Origin: Candidatus Blautia excrementipullorum
GTDB taxonomy: Bacteria > Bacillota > Clostridia > Lachnospirales > Lachnospiraceae
DNA: 64,000 nucleotides
Assembly (NCBI GenBank): GCA_019118645.1
Contig: DWYN01000018.1
Location: 1 to 64,000, forward strand
Direction: 5' to 3'
Each line of letters begins with the position of its first letter. Positions within the stretch are counted from its first letter, which is position 1. The notes beneath the pieces are model-generated. The model made no database searches. It saw only the letters and a list, made by a program, of their open reading frames with translations, and was not told where the DNA came from. The translations under genes and the position numbers were made by a program. Shown piece after piece: positions 1,646 to 42,695 of the stretch.

Positions 1646-2395
1646 ATGGCAAGAAAGAAAATCATTGCTGGAAACTGGAAAATGAATATGACTCCCAGCG
1701 AAGCAGTTAAATTAGTAGAAACTCTGAAACCTCTGGTAAAGAATGACGAAGTAGACGTAGTGTTCTGTGTACCGGCTATTGATATTGTTCCGGTTGTAGA
1801 AGCTGCAAAGGGAACCAACATTCAGGTTGGCGCAGAGAATATGTATTTCGAGGAAAAAGGTGCATATACAGGCGAAATCTCCCCGAACATGCTTACAGAC
1901 GCAGGCGTAAAATATGTAGTGCTTGGACATTCTGAGAGAAGAGAATATTTCGGTGAGACAAACGAAGATGTTAATAAGAAAGTGCTGAAAGCTCTTGAGC
2001 ATGGAATCACTCCGATCATGTGCTGCGGCGAAACTCTGACTCAGAGAGAACAGGGCGTGACTATGGATTTCATCCGTCAGCAGGTTAAGGTTGGATTCCA
2101 GGGCGTTACAGCAGACCAGGCGAAAACAGCAGTAATCGCTTATGAGCCGATCTGGGCTATCGGAACAGGAAAGACAGCTACAACTGAGCAGGCTCAGGAA
2201 GTTTGCGCAGGCATCCGTGCATGCATCGCTGAAATTTATGATGAAGCTACCGCAGAAGCAATCCGCATCCAGTACGGCGGATCTGTAAACGCAGCAACCG
2301 CTCCGGATCTGTTTGCACAGGCTGACATCGACGGCGGTCTTGTAGGCGGCGCTTCTCTGAAGGAAGACTTCGGAAAGATTGTTAATTATAAATAA
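1646..2395 (+). CDS. tpiA: Triose-phosphate isomerase
   Basis: This 249-residue TIM-barrel enzyme interconverts dihydroxyacetone phosphate and glyceraldehyde 3-phosphate. The start region has the catalytic Asn and Lys in GNWKMN (residues 9-14). The catalytic His lies in GHSERREYF (around 95), and the catalytic Glu in [12 protein letters not shown] (around 167), the flexible loop 6. The phosphate-binding YGGSV motif is near 211. An in-frame ATG at 1622 exists, but the ATG at 1646 has an AAGGAG ribosome site at 1631 and gives the family N-terminus. It is last in the gapA-pgk-tpiA run and is followed by a terminator. Confidence 0.97.
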
Positions 2396-2457
2396 TCTTT
2401 CATACTAACGGGACATTGGATCTGAAACAATGTCTTCCCTATACGAAAATATAAAAC

Positions 2458-2517
2458 ACCACCAGACTGAATTGAGAACAGGGTGATAACTGATTCTTGA
2501 TTCTCTGGTGGTATTTT
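2458..2517 (+). terminator. Intrinsic terminator after tpiA
   Basis: ACCACCAGA (2458-2466) pairs with TCTGGTGGT (2504-2512), followed by ATTTTT. The loop is long (37 bases). Confidence 0.7.
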
Positions 2518-2690
2518 TGTGTTTATTTTTCGGAAGTTATGTGGATATATTGCCATTTCCATATAGCTTATCTATAACAAAATTATATTTCGGTTTTTGC
2601 TGTTGAGAGACTGAATTTATTTTTTCAATGGTGATAACTCAGAAATAGTCAGAATATAGGATTCCTCCGAAATTTTAAGGACAAGTGAAG

Positions 2691-2765
2691 ATGACAGGAC
2701 AAAAAAACCTGCAGGAACTTACCATTAGGGACATCTTTATGTTTGGCGCGGTCATGATATCATAG
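2691..2765 (+). pseudogene. N-terminal remnant of a Rpn/PD-(D/E)XK nuclease-transposase family gene
   Basis: A 24-codon frame encodes MTGQKNLQELTIRDIFMFG and then AVMIS before a TAG stop. The pattern of ELTI-x-D-x-FMFGAVM is the N-terminus I recognise in Rpn-type recombination-promoting nucleases common in Lachnospiraceae, which are normally about 280-330 residues. Nothing recognisable of the rest follows before the convergent lipid kinase gene at 2872. It is read as a decayed fragment. The remainder of 2521-2871 is AT-rich with no gene or clear signal. Confidence 0.5.
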
Positions 2766-2871
2766 CCAGATCAATATGAAATTGCTCCGTACCGGACAGG
2801 GTATTTTATAGTTTGAAGGATAGAAGTCTGATACAATGCATGTATATATGAATATAATTGCTTTTCTGATT

Positions 2872-3993: not shown

Positions 3994-5010
3994 GTGGTTA
4001 CAATTAAAGAAATTGCCCAGCAGCTAGGCGTCAGTCCTACAACAGTATCAAATGTCCTCAATGGACGCGGGGGAAAGATGTCGCCGGAAACCCGGCAGAA
4101 GGTGCAGGAAGCGCTTATTCAGAATCATTATGTTCATGAAAGCCGGACCGGGGATGCTGAACCGATTACCCATTTTGTGGCAGTTTATTGCTGTCTGGGG
4201 GACAGGGAACACATTTTGATGGATCCTTTCTGCGGGGAACTGCTGGAGTCTGCAGAGAGGGAACTGCAGAAATATGGACGCACCATGGTGTGCGGGGTGG
4301 TTCCATCCAATGAGGATTTTGATGCAAGGCTGAAGTGCAGCGGACTGGAAGGCGCCGTGATTCTGGGATGCATGGAGGAGAACTGTGAGCAGCTTGTCAG
4401 ACGTACAGGCTTTCCGATTGTATTTATAGATTCCGGAAGGGGAAATTATGATAATATCGGTCTGCAGGATTATGAGGGCGCATATGAGATCACCAGTTAT
4501 ATGCTGAAACAGGGAAATAATAAACTTGCTTTTTTCTGTGATCAGAGAGAACCTGTGGGGCCTGACGGAGAGAGATATAGGGGCTTTTTGAAGGCAGTAA
4601 AAAAATATGGAGCATCTTTTTCGAAGGAAGAGGATTATGTGTTTCTTCCTGCAGATAAGAATCTTCGTTACGAGGTGCTGCGCGGATTTGCCAGGACAGC
4701 GAAGGAAAAAGGATATACGGGCGCTTTTTTTGTATATGATCTGCTGGCAAATGAGGGGATTAATATTTTCTTTACTCAGGGATTAAGTGTGCCTGAGGAT
4801 ATTTCCGTGGTTGGATTTGACGATAACATTTATGCCAGATTGTCGAGACCTACGCTTACAACGGTGCGTCAGAGTCCGGCAGAGAAAGGGAAAGCGGCAG
4901 TTACTCTCTTGATGAAGCGCATTTATGGTGAGGAAGTGCTGGCGCCCAGTCTTGAACTCCCTACGGAACTGATTGTCAGGGAGAGCGTTGCCAACCGTAC
5001 AGGAAAATAA
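3994..5010 (+). CDS. LacI-family transcriptional regulator
   Basis: This is a 338-residue regulator with an N-terminal LacI helix-turn-helix, VTIKEIAQQLGVSPTTVSNV (residues 2-21), followed by a periplasmic-binding-like sugar-sensing domain ending with the family motif FDDNIYARLSRPTLTTVRQ. Translation starts at GTG 3994 with GGGAGGGG upstream. It directly precedes a GH13 glucosidase and sugar ABC transporter operon separated by a terminator and several inverted repeats. It is therefore the probable repressor of that operon, sensing an oligosaccharide. The inducer is unknown. Confidence 0.93.
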   Translation: MVTIKEIAQQLGVSPTTVSNVLNGRGGKMSPETRQKVQEALIQNHYVHESRTGDAEPITHFVAVYCCLGDREHILMDPFCGELLESAERELQKYGRTMVCGVVPSNEDFDARLKCSGLEGAVILGCMEENCEQLVRRTGFPIVFIDSGRGNYDNIGLQDYEGAYEITSYMLKQGNNKLAFFCDQREPVGPDGERYRGFLKAVKKYGASFSKEEDYVFLPADKNLRYEVLRGFARTAKEKGYTGAFFVYDLLANEGINIFFTQGLSVPEDISVVGFDDNIYARLSRPTLTTVRQSPAEKGKAAVTLLMKRIYGEEVLAPSLELPTELIVRESVANRTGK

Positions 5011-5070
5011 CGGCAGAGCAGATATAGATCGGCAGGCTGCAAAAATACAGAAGATAAAAATGATCAAGAG

Positions 5071-5112
5071 CCGGGAACAGAGGAGAAAACTCCTAGTGTT
5101 CCCGCTTTTTTT
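5071..5112 (+). terminator. Intrinsic terminator after the LacI-family gene
   Basis: CGGGAACA (5072-5079) pairs with TGTTCCCG (5097-5104). AGGAG/CTCCT pairs inside it, and a CTTTTTTT run follows. Confidence 0.88.
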
Positions 5113-5202
5113 ATATATTTCACAAAAAAGAAACCTGTTTCTTGTGAAATATATTGGTTTTGTGGAACACTTCTTGCAAAACCAGACACAACCAATTAAA
5201 TT
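5113..5202 (+). promoter_or_regulatory. Nested operator-like inverted repeats and probable promoter before the GH13 operon
   Basis: ATATATTTCACAA (5113-5125) and TTGTGAAATATAT (5142-5154) are perfect inverted copies; inside them GAAAC-CT-GTTTC (5130-5141) is a second palindrome. GGTTTTG (5156-5162) and CAAAACC (5177-5183) form another, and ATTGGTT (5153-5159) with AACCAAT (5190-5196) a fourth. A weak promoter TTGCAA (5174-5179), 17-base spacer, TAAATT (5197-5202) overlaps the last pair. The likely ligand is the adjacent LacI-family protein; this assignment is inference. Confidence 0.6.
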
Positions 5203-5237
5203 TTATGGCAAATAGAAAACAGGAGAGGATATGAATT

Positions 5238-6884
5238 ATGGGAAATATAAATAATTCTAGAAAATGGTGGCAGACAGCGGTAATCTATCAGATATATCCC
5301 CGGAGCTTTTATGACAGCAATGGAGACGGGATCGGCGACCTTCAGGGAATCATTCACAAGCTGGACTACCTTCAGAAGCTGGGAGTTGACGCTATCTGGC
5401 TTTCTCCCGTATACCGTTCTCCCCAAGATGACAACGGATATGATATTTCCGATTACCAGGATATTGATCCAATGTTCGGCACAATGACGGATATGGACGA
5501 GCTGATCGCCGAGGCTGCCCGGAGAAATATCAGGATTATCATGGATCTGGTGCTGAATCATACTTCCGATGAACATCCCTGGTTTGTGGAAGCCAGAAAG
5601 GGAAAAGATAATCCTTACCATGATTATTATGTTTGGCGTGACGGGAAGGAAGGAGTATATCCCAATGAACTGAAATCTGGTTTCTGCGGATCTGCGTGGG
5701 AATGGGTACCAGAATGCGGTCAGTATTATCTTCATCAGTTTTCCAGGAAACAGCCTGATCTGAACTGGGAAAACCCGAAGGTGCGTGAGGAAATCTATAA
5801 AATGATCAACTGGTGGGTAGACCGCGGCGTGGGCGGTTTCCGCCTGGACGTGATTGATCTGATTGGAAAAGAACCGGATTCTATGGTGATGGCCGATGGA
5901 AAGATGCTTCATCCGTATTTAAAGGAGATGAGCAAAGCCGCTTTCCAGAGAAATAATCTGGTGACTGTGGGAGAGACATGGAGCGCTACGCCGGAAAGCG
6001 CATGGCTTTACAGTAATCCTGACGGCAGTGAACTGTCCATGGTATTTCAGTTTGAGCATATGGTTCTGGATCAGGAGGGAAAATCAAAATGGGATTTGGC
6101 GCCGCTTCCTTTTGTAAAATTCAAACAGGTTTTATCTAAATGGCAAAAAGAACTGGAGGGGAAAGGATGGAACAGTCTGTTCCTGGAGAACCATGATCTG
6201 CCCCGGTCGGTATCACGTTTTGGAGATGATGGAAAGTATAGGGTAAAATCGGCAAAAATGCTGGCGGTCATGCTTTATGGAATGCAGGGTACCCCTTATA
6301 TTTACCAGGGCGAAGAGCTTGGCATGACAAATGTGAAATTCGATATTGAAGACTATAGGGATATTGAACTTCTGAACATGTATAAAGAGCGGATCAGCGA
6401 GGGATATGACGAGAAGGATGTGATGCAGTCTATTTACGCAAAAGGCAGAGATAATGCCAGAACGCCGATGCAGTGGGATGAGAGCCCTAACGCGGGATTT
6501 ACATCGGGTACTCCGTGGATCCGCTGTAATCCCAATTACACAATGATCAATGCAGAAGAAGCAATGATAAATAGAGACTCTGTTTTCTATTTTTATCAGA
6601 AGCTGATCAGACTGCGGAAAACAGAAAAGATTTTTACCGAAGGAGTCTACAGGCTTCTTCAGGAGGAAAATGAAAGTATTTTCGCATATACCAGAGAGAC
6701 GCCGGAAGAGAAGATGCTGGTGCTTTGTAACTTCCGCGGTGAGGAAGTTCTCTGCGTACTGGAGGAGGGCTGGAAGGACGGAGAAGTGCTGATTGCCAAT
6801 TATGACACCCCATACCGGGAAGGCGTGCTCCGGCCTTATGAAGCAAAGATCATAAAAAAGAGAAAGGAGGGCTTTCACGCATGA
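5238..6884 (+). CDS. GH13 alpha-glucosidase / oligo-1,6-glucosidase
   Basis: The 548-residue cytoplasmic enzyme belongs to the GH13 alpha-amylase superfamily, in the oligo-1,6-glucosidase/alpha-glucosidase group. The catalytic set is visible: the nucleophile Asp204 in FRLDVIDL, the acid Glu246 in VGETW and the third acid Asp320 in LENHDLPR. The N-terminal WWQTAVIYQIYPRSF is typical and there is no signal peptide, so it would cleave imported alpha-glucosides. The ATG at 5238 is chosen over the ATG at 5231, which opens a frame of only seven codons and lies too close to the AGGAGAGG site. The stop overlaps the next start by four bases, showing tight coupling with the transporter. Confidence 0.93.
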   Translation: MGNINNSRKWWQTAVIYQIYPRSFYDSNGDGIGDLQGIIHKLDYLQKLGVDAIWLSPVYRSPQDDNGYDISDYQDIDPMFGTMTDMDELIAEAARRNIRIIMDLVLNHTSDEHPWFVEARKGKDNPYHDYYVWRDGKEGVYPNELKSGFCGSAWEWVPECGQYYLHQFSRKQPDLNWENPKVREEIYKMINWWVDRGVGGFRLDVIDLIGKEPDSMVMADGKMLHPYLKEMSKAAFQRNNLVTVGETWSATPESAWLYSNPDGSELSMVFQFEHMVLDQEGKSKWDLAPLPFVKFKQVLSKWQKELEGKGWNSLFLENHDLPRSVSRFGDDGKYRVKSAKMLAVMLYGMQGTPYIYQGEELGMTNVKFDIEDYRDIELLNMYKERISEGYDEKDVMQSIYAKGRDNARTPMQWDESPNAGFTSGTPWIRCNPNYTMINAEEAMINRDSVFYFYQKLIRLRKTEKIFTEGVYRLLQEENESIFAYTRETPEEKMLVLCNFRGEEVLCVLEEGWKDGEVLIANYDTPYREGVLRPYEAKIIKKRKEGFHA

Positions 6885-37587: not shown

Positions 37588-39075
37588 ATGCCAGTTTTTG
37601 ATTTTAACAGTACGCCGGAAAAAAACAAAACCCCGGAGTGCACTTATACGACATTCTGTTCTAATGAGGGGGAAGCTTCGCCGGAGAAGCCGATCCTGTA
37701 TCTGGACAATACGAAACGCCGGTGGAAGCACCACTCCTGCGGAGTTTTCACAAACCCGATACACAGAACTTCTTTTGAATTTAAAGAAGAACAGCAGGGA
37801 GTGGTGAGTGCGGATATTCTGAAAATTGACGCCAGGTTTGTCAGTCTGATTCGCTGGCTGGGGGAAAACAGGATCAGCGTGCGGCTTTCCGGAGAAAACC
37901 AGGAACAGGGATATGCAGTATATAAGATTCGCGAGACTGCATTCGGAGGAGGAACAAAGCTTTCTGCCGAGGATGGCTTTCTTCAGTTTATGATTGAAAG
38001 ACTGCTTTCCAGCAATGCCCCGGAAGAGGTGAACGGGGAGGAAGACGAAGATGAGGCAGGGGATGAGATGAAGCTGACCAGCATTCAGAGCATTACTGAT
38101 TTTATGACCTGCGCAGGCAGGACTCTGCCGGATAATATCCGTCTTTGGGCCAGAAGAAATCTGGCGGTAGCCCGGTCCCATGAGGTATCCCAGGAAGAGC
38201 GGCGCCATGCTCAGCGGGCGCTGTCTATTATGATGAATATTCAGTGGAAAAATAATTATTTTGAATCCATAGACCCTGAAGAAGCCAGAAGAATCCTTGA
38301 CGAAGAACTTTATGGTATGGAGAGGGTGAAACAGAGAATTATTGAGACGATTATCCAGATCAACAGAACCCATACCCTTCCGGCTTACGGGCTTCTTTTG
38401 GTGGGACCGGCCGGAACAGGAAAATCACAAATCGCTTATGCGGTAGCACGGATTCTCCGCCTTCCGTGGACGACTCTGGATATGAGCTCTATTAATGATC
38501 CGGAACAGCTTACCGGAAGTTCCAGGGTTTATGCAAACGCAAAGCCAGGTATCATTATGGAAGCTTTTTCCATGGCGGGAGAGTCCAATCTGGTTTTCAT
38601 TATCAATGAGCTTGATAAGGCTTCTGCGGGGAAAGGAAACGGGAATCCTGCGGACGTGCTTTTGACGCTGCTGGACAATCTGGGATTTACGGACAATTAT
38701 ATGGAATGTATGGTTCCAACAGTAGGCGTCTATCCGATTGCCACAGCAAACGATAAGAGCCAGATCAGTGCTCCTCTGATGTCCCGTTTTGCAGTTGTGG
38801 ATATTCCTGATTATACGCCGGAAGAGAAAAAAGTTATTTTCTCAAAATTTTCTCTTCCGAAAGTGCTGAAGAGAATGAGCCTGAAGGAAAGCGAATGCAT
38901 TGTCAGTGAGGAGGCGCTGGACGCCGTGATTGAGAAATATGCGGACACTACCGGAATCCGGGATCTTGAGCAGGCGGCGGAACATATTGCGGCAAATGCT
39001 CTTTATCAGATAGAAGTCAGCCATGTGCAGAGGGTTGTATTTGATGGGAAGATGGTGAGAGAGCTTTTGGACTGA
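37588..39075 (+). CDS. Lon-like AAA+ ATPase without a protease domain
   Basis: The 495-residue protein has an unrecognised N-terminal half (1-160) ending in an acidic linker, then a Lon-related helical segment and AAA+ core. Walker A is GPAGTGKS (273-280), sensor-1 Asn in IATAND (about 388), a probable arginine finger in LMSRF (400) and sensor-2 Arg in GIRDLEQAA. In Walker B the usual Asp-Glu is Asn-Glu: VFIINELDKA (N340-E341). The chain stops after the AAA+ small domain, so the Ser-Lys protease of Lon is absent. Start has AAAGGAG nine bases upstream. It may remodel proteins rather than degrade them; function is unknown. It is a single gene. Confidence 0.8.
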   Translation: MPVFDFNSTPEKNKTPECTYTTFCSNEGEASPEKPILYLDNTKRRWKHHSCGVFTNPIHRTSFEFKEEQQGVVSADILKIDARFVSLIRWLGENRISVRLSGENQEQGYAVYKIRETAFGGGTKLSAEDGFLQFMIERLLSSNAPEEVNGEEDEDEAGDEMKLTSIQSITDFMTCAGRTLPDNIRLWARRNLAVARSHEVSQEERRHAQRALSIMMNIQWKNNYFESIDPEEARRILDEELYGMERVKQRIIETIIQINRTHTLPAYGLLLVGPAGTGKSQIAYAVARILRLPWTTLDMSSINDPEQLTGSSRVYANAKPGIIMEAFSMAGESNLVFIINELDKASAGKGNGNPADVLLTLLDNLGFTDNYMECMVPTVGVYPIATANDKSQISAPLMSRFAVVDIPDYTPEEKKVIFSKFSLPKVLKRMSLKESECIVSEEALDAVIEKYADTTGIRDLEQAAEHIAANALYQIEVSHVQRVVFDGKMVRELLD

Positions 39076-39149: not shown

Positions 39150-39178
39150 TTGCAGAGGACAGAAAAATTTGTTATACT
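39150..39178 (+). promoter_or_regulatory. Promoter for the queuosine-salvage operon
   Basis: TTGCAG (39150-39155), 17-base spacer, TATACT (39173-39178). The transcript would begin near 39185 and carry two hairpins before the riboswitch: GTGC-AGGA with TCCTGCAC (39187-39219), and GCGGCGGC (39241-39248) with GCCGCCGC (39259-39266). Confidence 0.7.
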
Positions 39179-39268
39179 TGCGGCAGTGCGCAGGAATTTT
39201 AATAATTGAGTCCTGCACTTATGGAAAACTGAAGATGGAAGCGGCGGCCCAAAAGCGCGCCGCCGCGA

Positions 39269-39340
39269 AACTGGTTCGTGATCCTCCCAGTATAAAAAAC
39301 TAGGCTATACAGGTATCTTCTGATCGATGATGCCTTTTTC
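39269..39340 (+). promoter_or_regulatory. preQ1 class I riboswitch with terminator-like expression platform
   Basis: The aptamer (39270-39304) has stem ACTGG/CCAGT around a 12-base loop TTCGTGATCCTC, followed by the A-rich tail TATAAAAAACTAGG. This fits the preQ1-I pattern of short stem, C-containing loop and AAAAAACTA tail, with the same loop length as the Bacillus subtilis queC aptamer. Directly after it, AGGC (39302-39305) can pair with GCCT (39332-39335) before TTTTT, an imperfect terminator that shares bases with the aptamer tail. It precedes a queuosine-salvage operon, which supports the call. Tail sharing suggests that preQ1 binding switches transcription. Confidence 0.85.
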
Positions 39341-39388
39341 TGCGGAGGATTTTTGCGGAAAAGGCAAAAGAGATTAGGAGGTTTTTTT

Positions 39389-40372
39389 ATGGACAGAGTG
39401 ATAATTGACTGCGATCCGGGAATTGACGATTCTCTGGCTCTGATGCTGGCGCTGTCATCCCCGGAACTTGAGGTACTTGGGATTACAACCGTGTCCGGTA
39501 ATGTTCCGGCAGAGATGGGGGCGAAAAATGCCCGAAAAGTACTGCAGCAGATGAACAGACTGGATATCCCTGTTTATATCGGTGAGGCAGTTCCTCTCAG
39601 ATATGAATATACGGATGCGATGGATACTCACGGAAAGGATGGAATGGGGGAGAGTTTTCTGCCGGATGCACCAGGTACATTTCCTTCAGCAGATGCAGTG
39701 GAATTTCTGGAGAAGACGCTGGAAAAAGAACAAGTATCTGTCATTGCTCTGGGGCCAATGACAAATCTTGCCAGGGTTTTTTCGAAGAGACCGGATCTCA
39801 TCGGGCAGGTAAAGGATCTGATATCCATGGGCGGTAGTTTCAGAAGCCACGGGAATTGTTCTCCGGTTGCAGAATACAATTACTGGTGCGATCCGGATGC
39901 GGCCGCCGTCTGCTATAAGCTTTTTGCAGATGCGGGAAAAAAGATCGAGATGATTGGCCTGGATGTTACCAGAAAAATCGTGCTCACTCCGAATATACGG
40001 GAATATATCTGCCGCCTGGATCCTGAAACAGGGGAATTTATCCGCAGACTTACAGATTTCTATATGGACTTTCACTGGGAGTATGAAAAGATCATAGGAT
40101 GTGTGATCAATGATCCTCTGGCAGTGGCTTATTTTATTGACCGTTCTCTTTGCAGAGGCTTTGACAGCTACACAGAGGTGGAAACAGAGGGAATCTGCAG
40201 GGGACAGACGGTAGTGGATTCTATGAATTTCTGGAGAAGGAAACCAAACAGCCATATCCTTATAGAAACGGACAGCAGGAGATTTATGAAGTTTTTCCTG
40301 GCAAGAGTGATGAAAAAGCAGGATGGAAGCAGATGGCTGGAAGAAGAGCTTTCACTTCTGGATACGATTTAA
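39389..40372 (+). CDS. queK: Inosine-uridine-preferring nucleoside hydrolase family, probable queuosine hydrolase
   Basis: The 327-residue protein has the nucleoside hydrolase calcium site DCDPGIDDSLAL (residues 6-17), the ALGPMTNLARVF strand, MGGSFRSHGNCSPVAEYN and the late acid in VINDPLAVAY. The family splits the N-glycosidic bond of ribonucleosides. Because it sits directly under a preQ1 riboswitch and ahead of an ECF transporter and a radical-SAM gene, the probable substrate is queuosine or its 5'-phosphate, giving queuine, as described for Clostridioides difficile QueK. The start at 39389 has TAGGAGG upstream. A general purine or pyrimidine hydrolase role cannot be ruled out from sequence. 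Confidence 0.82.
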   Translation: MDRVIIDCDPGIDDSLALMLALSSPELEVLGITTVSGNVPAEMGAKNARKVLQQMNRLDIPVYIGEAVPLRYEYTDAMDTHGKDGMGESFLPDAPGTFPSADAVEFLEKTLEKEQVSVIALGPMTNLARVFSKRPDLIGQVKDLISMGGSFRSHGNCSPVAEYNYWCDPDAAAVCYKLFADAGKKIEMIGLDVTRKIVLTPNIREYICRLDPETGEFIRRLTDFYMDFHWEYEKIIGCVINDPLAVAYFIDRSLCRGFDSYTEVETEGICRGQTVVDSMNFWRRKPNSHILIETDSRRFMKFFLARVMKKQDGSRWLEEELSLLDTI

Positions 40373-40429
40373 AGGTACAGAAGCCCTCTGTACGCAGAAA
40401 CAGGAAAAAGCTTTTCAATGGAGGTTGAA

Positions 40430-41020
40430 ATGATTACGGAAAAAAGAAAGATCAATACTTATCAGATCTGTCTGGTAGCTCTGGCGGTTGGAATTAATAT
40501 TGTGGGGGGACAGATTGCCCTGTTTTTAAAACTTCCTGTATACCTAGACAGCATTGGTACGATTCTGACAGGAGCCCTTCTTGGTCCCTGGCTGGGGATG
40601 GTGCCCAATTTTATAAGCGGAATATTTATGGGAATGACAGTAGATATTTATTCTCTTTATTTTGCGCCGGTAGGAATGATTACCGGCCTGTTCAGCGGTC
40701 TTATTTTCCGGAAGGTATCGGTAAAAAAAGCAAAAATTCTGCTGGCTGCCGCCGGAATCACCATACCAGGCACTATTGTAAGTTCCGTTATAAACGCGCT
40801 GCTGTTTGGAGGGGTCACTTCCTCGGGCTCCTCAATTTTGGTACAGCTTCTGGCGAAGACGCCGCTTGGGCTGACAGGAAGTATTTTTGCGGTGCAGTTT
40901 ATTACAGATTATCTGGACAGATGTATTTCTGTCTTTCTTGTCAGCGTATGTGTCGCGGCGCTGGGAGGAGAACTGCGGGGGAAAATTTCAGGAAGGATAC
41001 ACAATAATGGAACGGTATAG
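40430..41020 (+). CDS. qrtT: ECF transporter S component, probable queuine/preQ1 uptake
   Basis: The 196-residue membrane protein has about six hydrophobic segments and the ECF S-component look (VALAVGINIVGGQIALFLKL; GTILTGALLGPWLGMVPN). S components bind a vitamin-like substrate and dock on a shared EcfAAT module, which is not encoded here. The riboswitch and neighbours suggest queuosine-related bases as substrate, as for the QrtT/QueT groups. The ATG at 40430 is favoured by GGAGG five bases upstream; ATG 40418 precedes that site. It overlaps the next gene by 14 bases. Confidence 0.82.
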   Translation: MITEKRKINTYQICLVALAVGINIVGGQIALFLKLPVYLDSIGTILTGALLGPWLGMVPNFISGIFMGMTVDIYSLYFAPVGMITGLFSGLIFRKVSVKKAKILLAAAGITIPGTIVSSVINALLFGGVTSSGSSILVQLLAKTPLGLTGSIFAVQFITDYLDRCISVFLVSVCVAALGGELRGKISGRIHNNGTV

Positions 41021-41693
41021 CAGAATTGAAGGAAAAAACAAAAGAGAGATCGTGCTTCTTCGGGCCTTTCCCTGTGCCTGGGGAAAGTGTACCTTTTGCG
41101 ACTATATTGCCGATAACGGGAGAAACGAAGAGGAAATGGTGCGACAGAACCGGGAGATTTTCTCGCAGATTACCGGAGAATTTGGAGTCCTTGAGGCAAT
41201 TAATTCCGGAAGCTGCTTTGAACTTCCAAGGGAGACTCTGGCGGATATCAAAGAAATTGTGAGAGAAAAGAACATCGGCAGACTGATTTTTGAGAGTCAC
41301 TGGATATACCGGAAACGGCTGCAGGAGATGAGGGACTACTTCGGCGTTCCTGTAACCTACAAAATCGGGGTGGAGACGTTTGATAATGATTTTCGTGAAA
41401 ATGTTCTCAACAAACATGCGGATTTTAAAACGCCTCAGGAAGTGGCGGCCCTGTTTGATTCGATCTGCCTGATGGTGGGAATTCAGGGGCAGACAAAAGA
41501 GATGATTCAAAATGATATTTCTGCTTTAAAAAAATATTTTAAGCATGGAACAGTCAATATATACAACAACAACAGCACTCCAATTAAAAGGGATGAAGAT
41601 CTGGTGCGCTGGTTCATGGAAGAATACCGCTGGCTCCTGGACGATCCGGAAGTGGAAGTTCTGTACGAGATTACAGATTTCGGCGTGGGCTGA
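41007..41693 (+). CDS. queL: Radical-SAM-like protein, probable queuine lyase
   Basis: The 228-residue protein has an early cysteine cluster in FPCAWGKCTFCDY (residues about 19-31), spaced C-x4-C-x2-C rather than the canonical C-x3-C-x2-C, and later barrel-like segments EAINSGSCFELP, YKIGVETFDNDFRE and LMVGIQGQTKEM. In this operon, after a nucleoside hydrolase and an S component under preQ1 control, it matches the queuine lyase QueL, which converts queuine back to preQ1. The start at 41007 has GGAAGGA upstream and lies within the transporter gene. Naming depends on context as well as sequence; a catalytic test has not been seen. Confidence 0.8.
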   Translation: MERYSRIEGKNKREIVLLRAFPCAWGKCTFCDYIADNGRNEEEMVRQNREIFSQITGEFGVLEAINSGSCFELPRETLADIKEIVREKNIGRLIFESHWIYRKRLQEMRDYFGVPVTYKIGVETFDNDFRENVLNKHADFKTPQEVAALFDSICLMVGIQGQTKEMIQNDISALKKYFKHGTVNIYNNNSTPIKRDEDLVRWFMEEYRWLLDDPEVEVLYEITDFGVG

Positions 41694-41702
41694 GAACCGG
41701 GA

Positions 41703-42668
41703 TTAGTGATGAGGAATCTCAGCATTGCCCGATGGAACAACAGACAGGAGCTTTTGTCCGCCGGAAGAAAAATCCTGCAGGGACTGACGGTACTGCCGGG
41801 GAGTCTGTCCGGTAAATTTGCGGAACTGGCGGATAAAATAGCTGACATTTTCAAAACCACAGTCCAGACTGATTTCCAGGATGGGACGGGTGGTGTCCCG
41901 CAGCGTCTCACACGCTTTTTCAATCCGAAAACGGATCAGATACTGGATCGGAGAGATTCCGGCCGCTTCTCTGAAAAAGTGACAGAGATACTGTGAATTT
42001 ACCTGTACTTCAGCGGCCAGCTCTTCAAGTGTAATTTTGTTCATATAATTTTTTTCTATGTAAGAAACAATTTTTTTGTAACGGTTTGTCCGTTCCTTGC
42101 CTGCTGCACTTAAAAGATCTTCTGCAGCGGGCATTTTTTTATGGATACATAATTCATAAAATATTTCCAAAATAAGAAGCTTTGCCCGGAAATACCATCC
42201 CTCTGTCTCTGCTTGGGCGATTTTGGCGGCCCGGTCGAAAAGTCCGGAAATTATGCTGTAGAGAGGATCTTCCGGCGTCAGAAGACGGGGAAGGGAGGTT
42301 GCGTGGGAGAGAAAAGGCGCAGCAAACTGTTCCTGGAATTCATCAGGATAGGTGAATTCCAGGATATGGGGATGAAAAATTACAGCGTCATGTACCGTTT
42401 CGCTCTGATTGCCCTCCAGGTAGTGGAGCTCCTCGCTGTTAATAAAGCAAATATCACCGGGATGAAGGGTATAGCTCTCCAGATTCACTTCTACATGGAA
42501 AGTCCCTTTTCTGATTTTCAATATTTCAACAGGATAATGCCAGTGCCTTTGCACAAAAAAATGGTCCGGATAAAAAGTCCCCGGGCCTGAGATAAAATGG
42601 ATAGAGGTCAGAGGCTGGCCGCTTGTCCCGTGACGGACGTTCTCTTTCAGGGATTGTTTTTCGTTCAT
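41703..42668 (-). CDS. AraC-family transcriptional regulator with cupin sensor domain
   Basis: The 321-residue protein has an N-terminal cupin-like sugar-sensing domain (HWHYPVEILKIRKGTFHV and HPGDICFINSEELHYLEG) and a C-terminal AraC double helix-turn-helix, from ITLEELAAEVQVNSQYLCHF to FRKFTGQTPRQYRQ. The start at 42668 has GAGGAG seven bases upstream. It is divergent from a GH31 alpha-glucosidase gene and so is its likely activator or repressor. The gene ends 9 bases from the convergent queL stop. Confidence 0.9.
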   Translation of the reverse strand: MNEKQSLKENVRHGTSGQPLTSIHFISGPGTFYPDHFFVQRHWHYPVEILKIRKGTFHVEVNLESYTLHPGDICFINSEELHYLEGNQSETVHDAVIFHPHILEFTYPDEFQEQFAAPFLSHATSLPRLLTPEDPLYSIISGLFDRAAKIAQAETEGWYFRAKLLILEIFYELCIHKKMPAAEDLLSAAGKERTNRYKKIVSYIEKNYMNKITLEELAAEVQVNSQYLCHFFREAAGISPIQYLIRFRIEKACETLRDTTRPILEISLDCGFENVSYFIRQFRKFTGQTPRQYRQSLQDFSSGGQKLLSVVPSGNAEIPHH

Positions 42669-42695
42669 TTCAAATCTCCTCAATATTATGTTATT

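Follow-up and report, generated by a model that had tools for sequence, protein, structure and literature searches.

What does the compact three-gene operon at positions 39150-41693 of this stretch provide to the cell, and how might the preQ1-I aptamer in front of it control its expression? The stretch, hereafter the window, comprises 64,000 nt of contig DWYN01000018.1 of Candidatus Blautia excrementipullorum (assembly GCA_019118645.1, a metagenome-assembled genome of 3.43 Mb in 184 contigs, 89.28% complete). On its plus strand a promoter, a variable leader, the preQ1-I aptamer and a long hairpin precede the genes encoding a nucleoside hydrolase, an S component of an energy-coupling factor (ECF) transporter and a radical S-adenosylmethionine (SAM) protein (Table 1). 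This layout bears out an earlier reading of the DNA (the preliminary description), in which the aptamer and the three genes were taken as a single unit. We assign the operon to the salvage of queuosine and queuine, of the queK-qrtT-queL kind and under negative feedback by preQ1, with a probability of about 0.88.

The aptamer and the three genes

The covariance model RF00522 matches the leader at 45.2 bits (E 6e-06), above its gathering score of 39, in agreement with the riboswitch class named in the preliminary description. This is the sole Rfam gathering match within the window and the one match reported for the whole assembly, for which scores were computed for 150 of 555 first-look candidates; matches of Flavo-1 and SNORD99 stayed below their gathering scores and were taken as chance. 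Read by eye (ACUGG-UU...UC-CCAGU...AAAAAAC), P1 of the element has UU above its 5' strand and UC ahead of its 3' strand, and a C interrupts the A-rich tail; these are the sequence features by which the available part of section 4 of PMC11625349, with its Table 1, defines type I preQ1-I riboswitches; according to the same excerpt, these bind two preQ1 molecules. By such features the element is a type I preQ1-I aptamer, and it would be expected to respond to preQ1.

When the radical SAM protein was compared with the PDB by phmmer, one match up to an E value of 0.1 was obtained, 6p78, annotated as 'Queuine lyase' (3.5e-81). The alignment spans residues 1-228 of 228 with 127/228 identical, the C-x4-C-x2-C spacing is the same in both proteins, and no difference pointing to another function was seen. 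No Pfam family matched, and RaSEA (TIGR01210; 58.1 bits against a cut-off of 212.15) was set aside as a distant relative only. The proximity to the solved queuine lyase agrees with the preliminary description, which had proposed QueL, and by sequence the gene is queL, its product being predicted to form preQ1 from queuine. The cysteine cluster reported there is likewise present, but its spacing, which had been regarded as unusual, is the rule in the QueL family, because all 46 distinct homologues of the loci examined carry it.

The hydrolase carries the motif DCDPGIDD, in agreement with the DxDxGxDD signature of its family, and scores far below the NCBIfam equivalog cut-offs for RihA, RihB, RihC and UriH. 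Its relationships were assessed in a maximum likelihood tree of 40 rows, built without L106 and L107, which yielded no usable frame, and without the locus-less matches among 46 (the own-genome G000:C183 included), in which the rows of L003 and L087 are identical and those of L105, L110 and L099 form long branches. The hydrolase of the window falls in a clade of 19 rows (support 100/99), 17 of them linked to QueL (the window and 16 others) and two unlinked, both of the latter also lying behind a preQ1-like aptamer; the hydrolase of G020 is identical to that of L003. The remaining 21 rows, nucleoside hydrolases among which is one paralogue from the same genome, fall outside this clade, so that the phylogeny supports the QueK identity suggested in the preliminary description.

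For the transporter gene, the open reading frame (ORF) tool gave a start at 40418, and the ATG at 40430 is preferred because a GGAGG lies at 40420-40424. Overlapping genes had been described in the unit; this holds for qrtT and queL, which share 14 bases by their ORF coordinates, and was rejected for queK and qrtT. As the S component passes no curated family cut-off, we label it only as QrtT-like, from its operon position: it lies between queK and queL in 12/12 complete-trio loci of L002-L015. Hence the position of the ECF S component named in the preliminary description is conserved, while its family identity stays below the thresholds given further on.

Table 1. Coordinates of the features discussed; the first eleven are numbered on the window, the last three on their own loci
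Feature	Position	Strand	Basis or remark
Promoter	39150-39178	+	-35 TTGCAG at 39150-39155, 17-base spacer, extended -10 TGT-TATACT ending at 39178
Leader with two predicted hairpins	39181-39264	+	Lineage-specific insert between promoter and aptamer
preQ1-I riboswitch aptamer, type I features	39265-39309	+	RF00522; P1 pairs 39270-39274 with 39287-39291
Predicted antiterminator strand, GAUCCUCC	39280-39287	+	Aptamer loop L1 (its 3' half) plus the opening base of the P1 3' strand
Terminator hairpin, also sequestering the Shine-Dalgarno sequence	39315-39382	+	Minimum free energy -31.3, z -6.28; covariation in 8 sequences
Predicted partner of the aptamer loop, GGAGGAUU	39344-39351	+	In terminator apex; 8 bp with 39280-39287
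Shine-Dalgarno AGGAGG of queK	39376-39381	+	Within 3' arm of terminator
U7 tract of terminator	39382-39388	+	Abuts queK start codon
queK, predicted queuosine hydrolase (IU_nuc_hydro), 327 aa	39389-40372	+	PF01156, 302.1 bits; QueL-linked clade
qrtT-like ECF transporter S component, 196 aa	40430-41020	+	Weak PF12822 and NF045596; conserved operon position
queL, predicted radical SAM queuine lyase, 228 aa	41007-41693	+	CAWGKCTFC cluster motif; 6p78, 275.6 bits
Short-chain dehydrogenase, L115 (G016)	4800-5456	-	Overlaps qrtT by 4 bases
Short-chain dehydrogenase, L128 (G385)	1942-2598	+	Overlaps qrtT by 4 bases; 80% identical to that of L115
Short-chain dehydrogenase homologue, L125 (G332)	2153-2797	-	46% identical; convergent beside qrtT

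The proposed salvage pathway and its relatives

In the available part of PMC11477304, a preQ1-I riboswitch of Clostridioides difficile is described as preceding the same three genes, whose functions are given as queuosine hydrolase, transporter of queuosine, queuine and preQ1, and queuine lyase; the operon of the window is therefore of an already described kind. It resembles C. difficile CD1682-1684 (queK-qrtT-queL) in gene order, gene families, the leading riboswitch and the putative pathway, and differs in belonging to another organism, the likeness being drawn from the published description and not from an alignment. Indirect queuine salvage by QueL is also described in the portions seen of PMC11130926 and PMC11570991, the former reporting QueKL as common in species of the large intestine.

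The window's own assembly contains tgt, queA and QueH, and thus the set that indirect queuine salvage calls for, namely tgt, queA and a de-epoxidase, the last being QueH. No match for queC, PTPS/QueD, QueG or QueT was found in this 89% complete genome. Of the genome content that the preliminary description had anticipated, tgt and queA are therefore present and queC and queD were not found, whereas QueH stands in the place of the expected QueG. EcfT occurs twice in the assembly, one copy lying behind two ATP-binding cassette ATPase frames and followed by a frame that we take to be TruA. We hypothesize that the QrtT-like protein, joined by a housekeeping EcfA-A'-T core whose genes lie elsewhere, would import queuosine, queuine and perhaps preQ1, that QueK would cleave queuosine to queuine, and that QueL would remove the cyclopentenediol from queuine to yield preQ1, which Tgt may insert into tRNA before QueA and QueH complete queuosine. 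The sequence itself documents the aptamer, the promoter layout, the terminator hairpin, the gene families and the genome context; the substrates in this scheme are inferred.

Several points weigh against the assignment. Neither QueK nor QueL passes any NCBIfam equivalog cut-off, the S component remains below both PF12822 (27.6 bits against 30.7, E 3.4e-06) and NF045596 (ECF_S_CD3073; 85.9 bits against an equivalog cut-off of 180), and the absences of pathway genes are soft because the genome is 89% complete. The weak family scores of the S component would suit an ordinary pair for purine or pyrimidine nucleoside salvage located beside queL by chance, as would the breadth of PF01156, which covers nucleoside hydrolases in general, and the fact that the nearest solved structures are of the RihA type. 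Nevertheless, the distance of the hydrolase from the Rih and UriH cut-offs, its place in the QueL-linked clade and the joint recurrence of the trio and the preQ1 aptamer in other genera render such a coincidence highly improbable. A Tgt of the queuine type that inserts queuine directly, leaving QueL to serve another purpose, has a precedent in Chlamydia trachomatis, for which the available part of PMC11570991 reports direct salvage; with QueA and QueH present, which are needed only for the preQ1 route, and with a switch that, by its RF00522 match, senses preQ1, this explanation is hardly tenable. The recycling of queuosine released as the cell turns over its own tRNA would employ QueK and QueL equally well, and as the main role of the operon, in place of scavenging from outside, it seems very unlikely given the transporter gene within the operon and an assembly in which queC and queD were not found; for these same two reasons an outside source would be needed at some point.

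Salvage from outside is the role we assign to the operon, with diet or neighboring organisms, as proposed in the preliminary description, as the putative source; its gene set recurs among relatives. A QueL relative was found in 32 loci, the 14 nearest of which belong to Clostridia (L002-L015); the complete trio is present in 12 of these 14, the other two (L005 and L006) being cut by contig ends, and RF00522 reaches its gathering score in 11 of the 12, with L008 as the exception. The kin of the window are gut Lachnospiraceae. At the more distant loci inspected, queL lies near other Q transporters. The neighbor is Vut_1 (QPTR/COG1738 family) in L028 and L033, and also in L116, where queK adjoins as well; in L027 Vut_1 is separated from queL by one gene, and in L018 the neighbor is QueT. 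The Vut_1 neighbor, and not an ECF S component, accompanies QueL at L028 5279-5959, L033 5231-5950 and L116 5305-6021, which represent Bacteroidaceae, Butyrivibrio and an order relative. At the QueL loci of Peptoniphilus and Anaerococcus no queK-like match was found, and an ECF S match was obtained in L022 (Anaerococcus) and L023 (Finegoldia).

QueL was found in 9 and QueT in 16 of 41 genomes, and in 5 and 13, respectively, of the 25 from the genus; in neither set do the two coincide in one genome. Treating the genomes as independent, an assumption that does not hold, would put the probability of no overlap at 0.006 and 0.015, respectively. This mutual exclusion suggests that the precursor imported varies among related gut species. 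The window adds a Blautia-like member of the gut Lachnospiraceae to the bacteria expected to take up queuosine or queuine from their surroundings, a micronutrient that the host reportedly cannot make.

The leader, its terminator and a model for switching

The promoter noted in the preliminary description has an identical layout 5' of the aptamer in L003, L004, L009, L068, L069 and L007, and this agreement confirms it; in L002, whose contig is cut there, the -10 element only is present. A simple consensus scan of the window listed neither this promoter nor the long terminator, and its site counts were not above those of shuffles, so that both elements rest on comparison and folding. Between promoter and aptamer lie the two hairpins also mentioned in that description. 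They are indeed predicted, but their fold is not above chance in the window (z -1.31, with 16/200 shuffles as good), unlike that of the L003 leader (z -5.17). The distance from the -10 element to the aptamer is 91 bases in the window against 16-28 in L002, L004 and L009, and because the leader is nearly absent in these three the hairpins are considered lineage-specific; as a generally conserved element they were rejected.

The terminator is a separate hairpin that begins six bases downstream of the aptamer's last position, and the proposal that it shares the aptamer tail was rejected for the window. None of 200 shuffles folded as well, and the counterpart in L002 has a z of -6.69. In 7/7 aligned leaders (window, L002, L003, L004, L009, L068 and L069) the leader ends in AGGAGG-U7-AUG, and U7-AUG is also found in L007. 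When the seven leaders and L007 were aligned, both-side changes occurred in 4/25 pairs, a number reached in 5/500 shuffles, and the covariation score was reached in 0/500, the alignment having been fitted to the structure.

Folding at growing transcript length indicates how the aptamer may be coupled to this hairpin: the loop strand pairs with GGAGGAUU before the 3' arm of the terminator exists, and the terminator hairpin displaces this pairing later. The likely antiterminator strand is thus the aptamer's own loop. We hypothesize that, when preQ1 is plentiful, the type I aptamer would be locked with its loop occupied, the loop strand could not pair with GGAGGAUU, and the hairpin would form, ending transcription at U7 just before the start codon and also burying the Shine-Dalgarno sequence of any read-through transcripts. 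Loop and terminator pair over 8 bp both in the window and in L068, over 10 bp in L002 and L069, over 11 bp in L004 and L009, and over 5+5 bp around a bulge in L003. In a shuffle control for gapless helices, pairings as good were found in 1/200 for L002, 2/200 for L004, 0/200 for L009 and 9/200 for L069.

Other results speak against this model. The same control shows no significance for the window (23/200), L068 (22/200) or L003 (123/200); in the eight sequences only 72.2% of the cells of the outer terminator helix are paired; the number of further pair types does not exceed that of shuffles (487/500 as high); and the covariation alignment had, as stated, been adjusted to the structure it was to support. 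In addition, when the full leader is folded with nested pairs, the terminator comes out ahead in the absence of ligand too (-35.5 versus -28.7 kcal/mol at 95-105 nt), and consequently switching would have to be kinetic. We hold the loop L1 antiterminator model, whose ligand response and order of folding we infer, with moderate confidence. Within the part of the preQ1 riboswitch literature available, a platform using loop L1 as antiterminator was not encountered.

Whether the hairpin stops transcription at all bears directly on this model. The type I examples in the accessible portion of Table 1 of PMC11625349 are listed as indirect Shine-Dalgarno occlusion, and the AGGAGG of queK lies within the hairpin stem, both of which would fit a riboswitch that acts on translation only, by hiding the Shine-Dalgarno sequence. 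Against this stand the exactly seven U that follow the stem in every aligned leader, as well as in L007, and the separate terminator-like hairpins located far upstream of the start codon in other genera (L013 and L014); a purely translational switch is therefore unlikely. Under transcription termination, which we prefer, the window departs from those examples, in which occlusion takes place at the aptamer tail, in that its Shine-Dalgarno sequence lies in a terminator distinct from the aptamer. It resembles the transcriptional type II preQ1-I riboswitch of B. subtilis as presented in that portion of the review, where the ligand likewise favors a terminator hairpin; set against the latter, the strand predicted for the window consists of the L1 loop and the P1 3' strand. 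Terminator, Shine-Dalgarno sequence and start codon were found fused in relatives of the window only, the leader of C. difficile not having been compared. The leader is a compact test case for a terminator that includes the Shine-Dalgarno sequence and abuts the start codon.

In other genera a pairing of the aptamer tail is found. CUAAGGAU pairs with AUCCUUAG or GUCCUUAG in L013, L014 and L015 (10/200, 15/200 and 13/200 shuffles as good, respectively), and CUAAGGAUA with UGUCCUUAG in L077 (3/200); the tail pairing of L011 is not significant (60/200), and L075, where the wrong site was matched, was left out of these shuffles. The antiterminator strand thus seems to have moved from the tail in other genera to the loop in the lineage of the window. 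In L013, L014, L015 and L077 the aptamer tail CUAAGGA is complementary to the downstream terminator loop UCCUUAG.

Relatives without queL and a short-chain dehydrogenase

Two genomes of the same genus, G001 and G016, encode a hydrolase of the QueK clade with no QueL match in the genome. At both loci a preQ1-like aptamer, queK and qrtT are present, followed in G016 by a short-chain dehydrogenase gene overlapping qrtT and in G001 by nothing on that strand. In G001, a single contig that is 99% complete (locus L114, 5087-6808), tgt, queA and queH are found and no match was obtained for queC, PTPS, QueT or QueL; this genome represents a gap in the known pathway. A search with a model of the leader matched 14/397 genomes of the family, the window's own included, and so added 13 aptamer loci, eight with queL and five with no queL at the locus.

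A dehydrogenase lies in or beside the queL slot in 3/7 loci lacking queL, where the absence is genome-wide for G001 and G016 and refers to the locus for the other five, against 0/21 loci with queL (Fisher 0.011); in the aptamer-model loci only, the counts are 2/5 and 0/9 (Fisher 0.11). The flanks are of unequal length, and absence of the dehydrogenase means absence in the stretch examined. The 21 queL loci are the window, L002-L004, L007-L015, G007, G009, L117, L121, L123, L124, L126 and L127, not counting L120, L122 and L037, which duplicate L007, L014 and L003, respectively. All three dehydrogenases keep, by eye, the S, Y and K positions of their family; they match general dehydrogenase families, and no NCBIfam cut-off is passed among the best 25 matches shown.

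It is conceivable, although quite unlikely, that the last step has two unrelated solutions, QueL or a dehydrogenase that would oxidize queuine at its cyclopentenediol, opening the amine bond to hydrolysis and so releasing preQ1. Such chemistry, which might proceed without radicals, is our own suggestion; by title and the opening of the abstract, no publication linking queuosine salvage with a short-chain dehydrogenase was found. If true, preQ1 can be made from queuine by a second route, which would be simple to test. This lead is less ordinary than the operon of the window and lies outside it.

As for the surroundings of the operon, the upstream neighbor (window 37588-39075), outside the unit, encodes an AAA ATPase with weak similarity to the Lon lid, and the downstream one (41703-42683), equally outside, is a convergent gene for a regulator of the AraC family.

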